Shown one piece after another: positions 22,398 through 62,903 of a stretch of 64,000 bases of DNA. The position numbers were made by a program, and so were the translations under genes. The notes under the pieces were generated by a model. The model saw only the letters and a program-made list of their open reading frames with translations, did not search any database and was not told where the DNA came from. This DNA comes from Gammaproteobacteria bacterium (GTDB lineage: Bacteria; Pseudomonadota; Gammaproteobacteria; SURF-13), in the NCBI GenBank assembly GCA_030680605.1, contig JAUXUQ010000021.1, positions 2,501-66,500 on the forward strand, given 5' to 3'. Positions within the stretch are counted from its first letter, which is position 1. Every line of letters begins with the position of its first letter.

Positions 22398-22616
22398 ATG
22401 AACCTGCTGCGCCTGATATTTATCGCCCTCGTCGTCTGGGTACTGGTCGCCCTGGTACGCTCTTACCTGCGACGCGCCGCCGCCCCCAAACAACCCCAGC
22501 GCATCGGCACCATCGTCCGCTGCGCCAAATGCGGCCTGCACGTACCGCAGGGCGAGGCACTACTCAAGGATGAGCGCTACTATTGTTCAGCGTCACACCG
22601 GGACGCCCGGGATTGA
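22398..22616 (+). CDS. Small membrane-anchored PP0621-type protein
   Basis: Function unknown. A 72-residue protein with one N-terminal membrane segment (LIFIALVVWVLVALV), a basic linker, and a C-terminal part with two cysteine pairs or near-pairs (VRCAKCGLHVPQGEALL and YYCSASH), like the PP0621 family found next to pilS in pseudomonads and relatives. The arrangement suggests a small metal-binding fold on the cytoplasmic side. Its stop is 11 bases before the pilS GTG, so the two are probably cotranscribed. Confidence 0.82.
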   Translation: MNLLRLIFIALVVWVLVALVRSYLRRAAAPKQPQRIGTIVRCAKCGLHVPQGEALLKDERYYCSASHRDARD

Positions 22617-22627
22617 CCGAGGCTGGG

Positions 22628-24256
22628 GTGACCGAACTCTCTACCACCCCCACCACCCGAGCCGACGCGGCCATCGATTCCAGTTTCACCTGGAACGTCC
22701 CGCGCTTCCTCAATATCTACCGGCTTCTGCTGGCGGGCCTGCTGTTCGCCTTCTCACTGCCAGAGATGCACCTCGAGCCGTTCGGCGAATTCGCACCCCG
22801 CCTTTTTGCCGCCCTCAGCGCCTTTTATCTGGTGTTTGCCGTCACCTGCGGCTTTGCGCTGCTCTGGCGCTGGCCCCCGCTGCGTCACCAGGTGCTCATC
22901 CAGGTGCTCATCGACATTGCCGCCATTACCCTGCTCATGCACGCCAGTGGCGGGGTGGACAGCGGCCTTGGCATTCTGCTGCTGGTGGTAGTCGCGGCCG
23001 GCAGCCTGTTCATGCCGGGACGGATTGCGATATTTTTCGCCGCCGTCGCCGCCCTCTCCACGCTGGGCGCGGCTGCTTACATGGACTGGCAGACCCCGGG
23101 AACGCCCAGCAACTACACGCTGGCAGGCATACTGGGCGCAAGCTATTTCGCCACTGCCATACTGACGCAGTATTTCGCGCGCAGCGCCAGCGCCAGCGAA
23201 AATCTTGCCGCACAGCGCGCAACAGACCTCGCCAACATGCAGCAGCTCACGGAATACATCATCGACCGCATGCAAACCGGCATTATGGTACTGGATGCCG
23301 ACGGCACTGTGCGCCTCATGAACGAATCCGCCGCGCACATGTTCGGGCTTGCCCGCCCTGCGGCTGCGTATCCACTGACTGATATCAATCCCGATCTGGC
23401 GCGGCAGTATCAGGCCTGGAAGAATGACCGGCACAGCACCACCCAGACCATTCGTTCCGTCAATGTGCCTGCCGATATCCAGCCACGCTTCGCTCAACTC
23501 GGAACCGACACCACGTCAGGTGTACTTGTTTTTCTCGAAGACGTCAGCGCCATCTCACAGCAGGCGCAACACCTCAAGCTCGCCTCGCTCGGCAAGCTTG
23601 CCGCCAGTATCGCGCATGAAATACGCAATCCGCTGGGCGCCATCAGCCATGCAGGCCAGTTGCTGAGCGAGTCTGCCTCGCTCACCGCAGAAGATGTACG
23701 CCTGACAGACATCGTCTGTGACCAGTCGCTACGCGTGAACAAAATAATCAGCAACGTACTGCAGATAGGACGCCGTGACCGTACACAGCAGACGGATATT
23801 GCATTAAAATCCTGGCTGGAAGAATTCATCACGCAACTTGCACATACCCATAACCTCACGGACGACGATATTGTCGTTGAGTATGGCGACCGTGACATCC
23901 CGGTACACATGGACCCGGGCCAGTTGCATCAGGTACTCTGGAATTTGTGCGAAAACGGTCTGCGCCACAGCGACCCCTCCCGGCAACCCAGGCTGACACT
24001 GATCTGTGCCCCCGGGTCCAAAACCGCCGCACCCCACATCGATGTCATCAACGTGGGGGCCCCCATCACAGCAGACGCTGCGCAACATATCTTCGAGCCG
24101 TTCTTTACTACCGAGCAAAGCGGCACCGGACTTGGCCTGTATATCGCGCGCGAACTGTGTGAACTCAATCAGGCACGACTCAATTACATACGCACCCCCG
24201 AGGGAAGTTGCTTTCGCATTACCTTCGCCGACCACAGGCGCAAGCCGCTGATGTGA
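22628..24256 (+). CDS. pilS: Sensor histidine kinase PilS-like
   Basis: Membrane sensor kinase that in Pseudomonas and relatives controls type IV pilin transcription with PilR. The start is uncertain: GTG 22628 has a GAGG site and is preferred over TTG 22583 or 22613. About six membrane segments span residues 25-185, followed by a PAS-like domain (GIMVLDADGTVRLMNESAAHMFG). Then come the H-box SIAHEIRNPLGAI, an N-box (LWNLCENGLRHS) and the ATP lid GTGLGLYIARELCELNQA. The intervening DNA to pilR is a MITE copy. Confidence 0.92.
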   Translation: MTELSTTPTTRADAAIDSSFTWNVPRFLNIYRLLLAGLLFAFSLPEMHLEPFGEFAPRLFAALSAFYLVFAVTCGFALLWRWPPLRHQVLIQVLIDIAAITLLMHASGGVDSGLGILLLVVVAAGSLFMPGRIAIFFAAVAALSTLGAAAYMDWQTPGTPSNYTLAGILGASYFATAILTQYFARSASASENLAAQRATDLANMQQLTEYIIDRMQTGIMVLDADGTVRLMNESAAHMFGLARPAAAYPLTDINPDLARQYQAWKNDRHSTTQTIRSVNVPADIQPRFAQLGTDTTSGVLVFLEDVSAISQQAQHLKLASLGKLAASIAHEIRNPLGAISHAGQLLSESASLTAEDVRLTDIVCDQSLRVNKIISNVLQIGRRDRTQQTDIALKSWLEEFITQLAHTHNLTDDDIVVEYGDRDIPVHMDPGQLHQVLWNLCENGLRHSDPSRQPRLTLICAPGSKTAAPHIDVINVGAPITADAAQHIFEPFFTTEQSGTGLGLYIARELCELNQARLNYIRTPEGSCFRITFADHRRKPLM

Positions 24257-24270
24257 AAAATATGATGCGG

Positions 24271-24402
24271 GCTTCTCTACAATGATGGATATTGCTTCAA
24301 GGCAGGCTGTAACGGCCGCGCCTGCGCGTCCTGGGTTCGCGCCATTCATGCTTTCATGTGTAACACAGTATTGGAGCAAAAGACACGTGTTTAGAGGCGC
24401 CC
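24271..24402. mobile_element. Diverged MITE copy between pilS and pilR
   Basis: Both ends align with the intact element at 62749-62903. At the left, TCTCTACAATGATGGAT is followed by CTTCAAG. At the right, a shared CAGTATTGGAGCAAAAGAC leads into a TTTAGAGGCGCCC end. The last base directly precedes the pilR ATG, so the AGAGG of the element end serves as the ribosome-binding site. Confidence 0.75.
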
Positions 24403-25728
24403 ATGAGTGACCCCATTGCATTAATAGTAGATGATGAGGCCGACATCCGTGAGCTGCTGCAACTCACGCTGAAGCGCATGCACATTACCTCACAAACGGC
24501 TGCAACACTGCAGGAGGCACATACCCTGCTCGCGCAACAGTCGTTCGACCTCTGCCTCACCGACATGCGCCTGCCGGACGGTAGCGGCCTCGATCTCGTC
24601 GAGCACATGCAAACCGACTACCCTGACACGCCGGTTGCCGTCATCACCGCCCATGGCAACATGGAGTCGGCCATCGCCGCACTCAAGTCAGGTGCGTTCG
24701 ATTTCGTTTCCAAGCCCGTCGACCTGCGCGTGCTGCGTAATCTGGTCAGCACCGCGCTGCGGCTCTCGTCCACCCGCATCGAGCCGTCACCCACGCGCTC
24801 CGGTCTCGACCTGCTCGGCAACTCGACTGTCATGCAGGCCATCCGCAGCACCGTCACCAAGCTCGCGCGCAGTCAGGCGCCGGTGTATATCAGTGGCGAG
24901 TCCGGCACCGGCAAGGAACTGGTCGCACACCTGATTCACGAAAGCGGTCCGCGCGCGCGCGGACCATTCATCCCGGTGAACTGTGGCGCGATTCCCGAGC
25001 ACCTCATGGACAGTGAATTCTTCGGCCACAAGAAAGGCAGTTTCACCGGCGCGGTGGCCGACAAGGCCGGGCTGTTTCAGGCCGCCCACGGCGGCACCCT
25101 GTTTCTGGATGAGGTTGCCGACCTGCCACTGCACATGCAGGTGAAACTGTTGCGCGCGATACAGGAAAAATCCGTGCGACCCATCGGCGAACAAAAAGAA
25201 GTCGGCATCGACGTACGCATTCTGAGCGCCACCCACAAGGATCTGGCCACCCTGGTGAAAAAAGGCGAGTTCCGCCAAGATTTATTTTACCGCATCAACG
25301 TCATTGAATTGCACGTGCCCAGCCTGCGTGAACGCCCACAGGACATCCCCCTGCTGGCCGAACACATCCTGCAACGCCTCGGCACAGCGACCGGTGTCAC
25401 CACGCCGCGCCTGAGCCCCGCCGCACGGGAAGCGCTCAGCCACTACCCGTTTCCCGGCAACGTGCGCGAGCTGGAAAATATACTGGAGCGTTCGCTCACC
25501 CTGTGCGAAGGCAGCGTAATCGATGCCCCCGATCTGCACCTGTCGCAGACGCATGAGGCCGTCGTGCATGATGGCAGCGCGCTGGAACCCTATCTCGGCA
25601 CGCTGGAAAAAGAGGCCATCGTCAAGGCACTGGAAAAGACACGCTACAACAAAACTGCCGCCGCCAAGCTGCTCGGCATCACCTTCCGCGCCCTGCGCTA
25701 TCGGCTGAAAAAACTCGGCCTCGACTAG
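24403..25728 (+). CDS. pilR: Sigma-54-dependent response regulator PilR-like
   Basis: NtrC-family activator, partner of PilS, expected to drive sigma-54 transcription of pilin genes. The 441-residue protein has a receiver domain (DDEADIRE; phosphoacceptor aspartate in LCLTDMRLPDGSG). The AAA+ domain has Walker A GESGTGKELVA, the sigma-54 loop as KKGSFTGAV and GTLFLDEVADLP. A Fis-type helix-turn-helix follows (KTRYNKTAAAKLLGITFRAL). The serine in the GAFTGA loop is the usual PilR variant. The stretch encoding the last residues (KLGLD) recurs 588 bp downstream. Confidence 0.94.
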   Translation: MSDPIALIVDDEADIRELLQLTLKRMHITSQTAATLQEAHTLLAQQSFDLCLTDMRLPDGSGLDLVEHMQTDYPDTPVAVITAHGNMESAIAALKSGAFDFVSKPVDLRVLRNLVSTALRLSSTRIEPSPTRSGLDLLGNSTVMQAIRSTVTKLARSQAPVYISGESGTGKELVAHLIHESGPRARGPFIPVNCGAIPEHLMDSEFFGHKKGSFTGAVADKAGLFQAAHGGTLFLDEVADLPLHMQVKLLRAIQEKSVRPIGEQKEVGIDVRILSATHKDLATLVKKGEFRQDLFYRINVIELHVPSLRERPQDIPLLAEHILQRLGTATGVTTPRLSPAAREALSHYPFPGNVRELENILERSLTLCEGSVIDAPDLHLSQTHEAVVHDGSALEPYLGTLEKEAIVKALEKTRYNKTAAAKLLGITFRALRYRLKKLGLD

Positions 25729-25800
25729 GCCGCGAGACAACAAACTGCTAGGTGGTCCCTGGCTCCTTAACGATTTATGGGTATCCATAATGGAGTGAAC

Positions 25801-26229
25801 ATGAAAGCCGTGAAATTAACCCTTCCGATCATCGCACTGCTGTTTCAGCAAACCGCATTTTGTCTTGAGCAATCCACATCTGTAACGGTTTCCACACTAT
25901 TAAAGACGGAAAGCAGCTGGGACGGGAAACCAATTTCTTACCCTGACGGCAAGGCGGAAATTACCGGCATGCTTGTTGAACTGGCACCGGGCGCTGAAAC
26001 TGGCTGGCATTTACACCCGGTTCCTTCGTTTGGCGTGATTCTGGAAGGCGAGCTGGAAGTTCATCTGAAAACCGGGGAAGTAAAGCGCCTCAAGCAAGGT
26101 GAGGCGCTGGCCGAGGTCGTAAACACTCTTCACAACGGCCGCAGCGTTGGCACTGTACCGGTAAAAATCGTGGTTTTCTATGCAGGATCAGTGAACCAGC
26201 AGTTATCGATAAAGGAAAGCGCACCCTAG
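25801..26229 (+). CDS. Exported cupin-domain protein
   Basis: Single-domain cupin of unknown substrate. ATG 25801 follows a GGAG site and starts a 142-residue protein with a signal peptide ending near AFCLEQ. The cupin motifs are visible: LAPGAETGWHLHPVPSFGVILEGELEV (two histidines and a glutamate for metal) and, less well kept, VNTLHNGRSVGTVPVKIVVF. It is probably periplasmic. Its less GC-rich codon use and its position inside a duplicated pilR 3' end suggest acquisition by transfer. Confidence 0.8.
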   Translation: MKAVKLTLPIIALLFQQTAFCLEQSTSVTVSTLLKTESSWDGKPISYPDGKAEITGMLVELAPGAETGWHLHPVPSFGVILEGELEVHLKTGEVKRLKQGEALAEVVNTLHNGRSVGTVPVKIVVFYAGSVNQQLSIKESAP

Positions 26230-26286: not shown

Positions 26287-26319
26287 TACCGCCTGAGCAA
26301 ACTCGGCCTCGACTAGGCC
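26287..26319 (+). repeat. Second copy of the pilR 3' end
   Basis: Positions 26299-26319 repeat 25711-25731 without mismatch (21 bp including the pilR stop codon). Upstream similarity continues more weakly. In frame it reads VYRLSKLGLD and stop, against RYRLKKLGLD and stop in pilR. The two copies lie 588 bp apart and bracket the cupin gene. Confidence 0.85.
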
Positions 26320-26340
26320 CGATACAAAGCGCTTGCCCCT

Positions 26341-56161: not shown

Positions 56162-56166
56162 TTTGC

Positions 56167-56209
56167 CGCAACAGCATTTGGCGCAAAAGACACATTGTCA
56201 GAGGTACCC
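56167..56209. mobile_element. Right-end fragment of the AGAGG-ended MITE family
   Basis: About 43 bp (CAACAG..TT..GCAAAAGACACA ... AGAGGTACCC) aligns with the right end of the intact element at 62749-62903. It ends exactly at the ATG of the permease gene and provides its GAGG ribosome site. The left part of the element is missing. Confidence 0.6.

Positions 56210-61765: not shown

Positions 61766-62903
<1,138 letters not shown>

Follow-up and report, generated by a model that had tools for sequence, protein, structure and literature searches.

A decayed MITE between pilS and pilR whose terminal repeat probably provides the Shine-Dalgarno sequence of pilR

The pilS-pilR Junction

The window analysed is a stretch of 64,000 nt (G000:C21:2501-66500) of a 1.87-Mb genome in 23 contigs, here called G000, and its relevant features are collected in Table 1. 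The two genes under study encode a PilS/PilR two-component system on the basis of their Pfam domains, i.e., a 6-TM domain followed by kinase domains in PilS and a sigma-54 response regulator as its partner. The stop codon of pilS and the ATG of pilR are separated by 146 nt, of which positions 24269-24402 are a degenerate MITE copy. This copy aligns best with a 192-bp form of the element, sharing with it both ends and the internal CGCCTGCGCGTCCTG unit, and the alignment score of 127.5 is far above that of 500 shuffles (mean -0.3, maximum 28), which bears out the claim of an earlier note on this DNA that the gap matches an intact MITE of the window at both ends. The limits given there need correction: the element extends over 24269-24402 (134 bp) and not 24271-24402, and the intact reference copy over 62750-62902 (153 bp) and not 62749-62903. 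When 3 mismatches at most are allowed, the pattern of the right end, CAAAAGACACNNNTTTAGAGGNGCCC, occurs three times in the window, whereas shuffled sequence gives an expectation of 0.00.

Table 1. Features of the pilS-pilR region and related elements (positions refer to the window unless a contig is given).
Feature	Coordinates	Strand	Evidence and remarks
pilS, sensor histidine kinase	22583..24256	+	Stop TGA 24254-24256; Pfam 6TM_PilS (PF25323) 1.4e-37, PAS, HisKA, HATPase_c
Left copy of target duplication, ATGC; probably what is left of the original pilR start codon	24265..24268	+	Sequence; family makes 4-bp duplications
Decayed MITE, 192-bp form cut to 134 bp	24269..24402	+	Left end GGGCTTCTCTAC, right end TTTAGAGGCGCCC; alignment and BLAST
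AGAGG in right terminal inverted repeat, putative pilR Shine-Dalgarno (GAGG 24394-24397, 5-nt spacer)	24393..24397	+	Anti-SD duplex -5.8 kcal/mol; native SD peak -15 to -6
Right copy of target duplication, ATGA; pilR start codon and the base after it	24403..24406	+	Sequence
pilR, sigma-54-dependent response regulator	24403..25728	+	Response_reg, Sigma54_activat, HTH_8; sister-genome ortholog 89% identical
Fossil right end of MITE	56165..56209	+	82% over 45 nt; directly before the ATG (56210) of a LolC/LolE-type permease (TIGR02212, PF02687)
Intact MITE reference copy, 153 bp	62750..62902	+	1 nt past the stop of the convergent right-hand gene; not at a start codon
IS with DDE_Tnp_1 transposase (345-aa open frame)	L268, G003:C39, 1300-2520		34-nt inverted ends GAGACCTCTGAACAACCCCC... 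(TATAGAGACCTCTGAACAACCCCC...), related to MITE ends

The final base of the element is 24402 and the ATG of pilR begins at 24403, the direct contact that the earlier note had described. The same note had taken the AGAGG of the element end as the Shine-Dalgarno (SD) sequence of pilR; no SD-like motif other than AGAGG (24393-24397) lies at the correct spacing, inside the native SD window, and its use by the ribosome is likely, as far as sequence can tell. The element could instead supply a promoter for pilR, a role described for Correia elements and a number of further MITEs (PMC10969869), but a search of 24150-24450 for consensus sites of the sigma-70 type found none, and this role appears very improbable. 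No known RNA families were found in the window.

At the other end of pilR, its last codons (AACTCGGCCTCGACTAGGCC, about 25710-25734) recur at 26296-26321, downstream of the cupin-like ORF (about 25777-26229) that follows pilR; insertion of this ORF together with a duplicated pilR tail would give such a layout.

Structure and Mobility of the MITE Family

The full copies of the family range from 84 to 244 bp, with 141 and 142 bp the usual lengths, below the limit of about 400 bp applied to MITEs; they have no conserved ORF, encode no transposase and carry the terminal inverted repeat (TIR) GGGYRCCTCTAAAAATG at both ends. In six genomes (G000-G005), 53-54 full copies are dispersed, with empty orthologous sites, and are flanked by 4-bp target duplications: the flanking 4-mers are 69% identical over 54 full copies, with exact duplication in 17 of them against 1.3 expected by chance (shuffling). 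TTAA, TTCA, TTTA, and ATAT are the commonest target 4-mers in these 54 copies, giving a TTNA-like consensus. Elements with a similar core occur in three other sampled genomes of the class, and the papers listed by a search of open-licence literature with the TIR sequence were unrelated, their matches apparently being due to chance.

A coding role of the element was considered and rejected: in most of the 141- and 192-bp copies, whose lengths are multiples of three, one frame runs through without a stop, but stops interrupt it in the 142-bp subfamily. Within the 141/192/201-bp subfamily the frame is open through most copies and the indels are multiples of three; in the pilR copy it terminates within the first pilR codons.

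Regarding a possible source of transposase, an IS of G003 encoding a DDE_Tnp_1 protein (Table 1) has an inverted repeat, GRGACCTCTGAAMAACCCCC, that is similar but not identical to that of the MITE, while G000-G002 gave no match to DDE_Tnp_1. Its role as parent of the MITE is not established, since the repeats are related but not the same. A trmL-like gene (L249, G000:C10:93155; L314, G001:C17:9281) starts 2 nt after ATTTTTAGAGGCGCC[CT], which is preceded by AAGGGGGGCAAGGGGGG, a different subterminal sequence resembling the end of the G003 IS; this sequence may mark the repeat of an autonomous parent. Two repeat ends are also found back to back within 36-45 bp (G003:C13:24779-24823 and G004:C41:11695-11730), apparently after almost complete deletion of the interior.

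Empty Junctions and Target Site

Two genomes of the same genus show the junction free of the element. In G001, whose pilR is 89% identical, pilS and pilR overlap by 4 nt (CTGATATGAGCG), and in G002 they are separated by 10 nt (CTGATGTGA GTGATGAGCC ATGAGC). More generally, the gap is at most 12 nt in 53 of the 67 relatives with an identifiable pilS, in agreement with the expectation of the earlier note that the two genes usually lie close together, versus the 146 nt of G000. The element is otherwise common in these genomes, with 27 matches in G001, 24 in G002, 21 in G003, and about nine places in G000. Because the G001 and G002 junctions are empty while copies exist elsewhere, the pilR insertion is specific to the G000 lineage within the genomes compared, and the relatives found are the reverse of those that the earlier note had named as fatal to its reading, namely genomes with the same junction sequence and no other copies of the repeat.

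The pilR element is flanked by ATGC on the left and ATGA on the right, which fits the 4-bp target duplication of the family. Removal of one 4-mer restores CTGATGTGA-AAAATATG-ATGAGTGACC with an 8-nt gap, close to that of G002, and for these two reasons the start codon of pilR was probably itself the insertion target and was duplicated by the insertion. The ychF gene of G001 has the same pattern (ATGT, element, ATGG), with the native leader retained on the left; in aroC of the same genome the native SD and ATGTC are retained to the left of the element, together with three further unplaced bases.

Recurrence at Other Gene Boundaries

The tail pattern ATTTTTAGAGGYRCCC, allowing one mismatch, identifies 141 ends in the six genomes versus 1 for the reversed control. 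The analysis covered 139 distinct ends, 72 of them oriented towards a gene start and 64 towards a stop. A start codon lies 0-8 nt outward of 30 of the 139 ends (4.8% expected from random intergenic positions, p 3e-12), i.e., of 42% of the start-facing ends (30/72) against 12% (p 2e-10), and the 30 starts at 0-8 nt compare with 8 at 9-17 nt where a ratio of 1.2 is expected (p 0.003); these p-values are optimistic, as a few orthologous insertions (queC, ubiJ, trmL) are counted repeatedly and the gene starts come from a simple caller. The start-proximal ends have no significant orientation bias (18 right to 10 left, versus 44 to 48), nor does the start-proximal share differ significantly between orphan and paired ends (10/31 versus 20/108, p 0.14).

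The genes led by an element include ychF, aroC, mnmA, queC, queA, lpxK, fabD, ccmB, radA, ubiJ, panC, nuoE, tilS, nhaA, dnaQ, mapA, grxC, an acetolactate-synthase-like gene, and a permease of the LolC/E type. These names were assigned from recognisable N-termini and from orthologs, the permease and PilSR being the ones also checked against family libraries. Most of those checked have orthologs in other genomes without the element and with different leaders. Thus, judged from sequence position, the arrangement seen at pilR is found at more than 20 other genes in G000 and its relatives. In some cases only a fossil of 16-45 bp persists, and it is the start-proximal end that is kept (LolC/E-like permease, lpxK in G003, queA in G001, and trmL in G000 and G001).

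On the other side, the distance to a stop codon is at most 1 nt for 28 of the 64 stop-facing ends; for seven the position is exactly -12, and there the stop is provided by the inward repeat GGG NNC CTC TAA itself. Such positions would be expected if the insertions were tolerated accidents: TTAA-like targets contain stops, so that the TTNA-like preference alone would place many copies at gene boundaries, purifying selection would clear the genic ones, and pilR would need no SD or would reinitiate, many native starts in these genomes being without a strong SD. This explanation leaves unaccounted for the excess over 9-17 nt of ends at 0-8 nt, a distance at which an insertion should come to lie between the native SD and the start codon, and it also does not explain the fossils retaining the start-proximal end; it is considered unlikely.

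Short inward repeat remnants of 14 bp were also observed just before gene starts in G001-G003 (L320, L313, L324, L323, L310, L316, and L322), among them mutM, def, a dprA-like gene, and an RND-type transporter. They mostly follow the upstream stop immediately (TAA/GGGYRCCTCTAAAA/ATG), and in most of them the ATG of the gene coincides with an ATG within the repeat.

Putative Shine-Dalgarno Position and Predicted RNA Folding

An outward repeat whose end lies d nt from a start codon places GAGG 5 nt + d from it, so that d values of 0-6 correspond to -9 to -15. SD motifs of the other genes in these genomes are concentrated in the same region (57 in -15..-11 and 22 in -10..-6, with 7-16 per 5-nt bin further upstream); element ends 0-6 nt before a start therefore put GAGG in the native SD peak. 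The 3' end of 16S rRNA is often absent from metagenome-assembled genomes, and GGATCACCTCCTT is absent from all six assemblies G000-G005, for which reason the anti-SD sequence was assumed. With this assumed sequence the predicted pairing is -5.8 kcal/mol at pilR versus +0.3 and -2.2 at the two empty sites, and averages -6.0 kcal/mol at 28 element-led starts versus -3.6 at other genes. Position and fossils suggest selection on the SD itself; it is not proven, because GAGG is not significantly better conserved at start-proximal ends (23/28) than at other ends (72/92).

The two TIRs of an intact copy can pair in the transcript. In the predicted folds of most intact copies examined, among them those at aroC, queC, and ychF, the SD is fully buried, and opening the region from SD to start would cost 10.8-29.6 kcal/mol in most intact copies. 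The decayed or partial copies of G000 (permease, als, pilR, and radA) would require 4.7-7.3 kcal/mol. In particular, the predicted cost at pilR falls to 6.7 kcal/mol because the left repeat (GGGCTTCTCTAC) has decayed, compared with 5.7 and 5.8 at two empty pilR sites, although GAGG is still mostly paired, if weakly, to other local sequence. The models thus predict that TIR:TIR pairing hides the SD in intact copies and that the decayed pilR copy largely escapes it; a path may be envisaged from intact copy through decay of the left arm and a freer SD to a short fossil.

The folds could be taken to mean that the element mainly lowers expression, its hairpin hiding the SD or being an RNase III substrate as in Correia, and acts at pilR as an attenuator. 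The fully paired SD of intact copies, with an SD-to-start opening of about 15-30 kcal/mol for most, fits this idea, as does the RNase III cleavage in Correia TIRs (PMC10969869). The pilR copy, however, is decayed and its opening cost is close to that of the empty sites, and intact copies must still permit translation since they precede broadly conserved housekeeping genes (aroC, ychF, mapA); a mainly repressive role is accordingly improbable. Possible routes past intact copies such as those at aroC and ychF are ribosomes entering from the left or cutting of the stem by RNase III as in Correia elements (PMC10969869).

Proposed Explanation

The explanation favoured with good confidence is that the start codon of pilR received a MITE insertion and that the TIR end of this element is now the pilR leader, with GAGG as SD. 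The 4-bp duplication would have copied the ATG (ATGC, element, ATGA), and the right-hand ATG would have acquired the outward end TTTAGAGGCGCCC as its 5' leader and GAGG, 5 nt upstream, as its SD. A tight pilS-pilR junction, where initiation was probably coupled, would thereby have been converted into an independent initiation site 146 nt after the pilS stop; decay of the left end would then have released an SD locked by TIR:TIR pairing, and the PilS:PilR balance may have changed.

For the family as a whole, the data suggest a mobile element with ends doubling as translation signals. A broader reading, tentative and put at slightly under even chances, regards the TIRs as portable translation punctuation: the inward TAA (GGG NNC CTC TAA) can end the upstream gene, the outward SD is correctly spaced, and the 4-bp duplication can copy a start codon, so that insertions between packed operon genes or on start codons would stay viable, and decay of one arm would free the SD to give a domesticated leader. 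If true, this would be a route for mobile-element survival in compact, operon-dense genomes, and many housekeeping genes would change their translation-initiation site and coupling by element insertion. The natural series of empty site, intact copy, decayed copy, and 16-25-bp fossil would make it possible to test directly how a transposon end evolves into a ribosome-binding site.

Comparison with Known Systems

The element resembles the bacterial MITEs Correia/NEMIS, ERIC, RUP, and MITEAba12, which are short, lack a transposase, have TIRs and target duplications, occur in many intergenic copies, and form hairpins in transcripts. The effects documented for these differ, being promoters, IHF sites, RNase III/E sites, gene inactivation, small RNAs, and in-frame fusions (PMC10969869). 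A 2024 review of prokaryotic MITEs also lists possible riboswitches or terminators and says nothing of ribosome binding, Shine-Dalgarno sequences or start codons (PMC10969869); the literature compared here is that of open-licence papers. In Amoebophilus asiaticus, IS ends likewise lie too near start codons for a native SD to fit, but the discussion in that paper concerns promoter sequences within the IS and not an SD in the repeat (PMC3196728). ORF-11 of the integron attI1 site is similar in that the recombination site of a mobile element gives translation initiation to adjoining genes, but it acts through a translated 11-aa leader and coupling, with one site per integron (PMC8876359). In contrast, in the MITE described here the repeat end itself is the putative SD and has been moved to many chromosomal genes.
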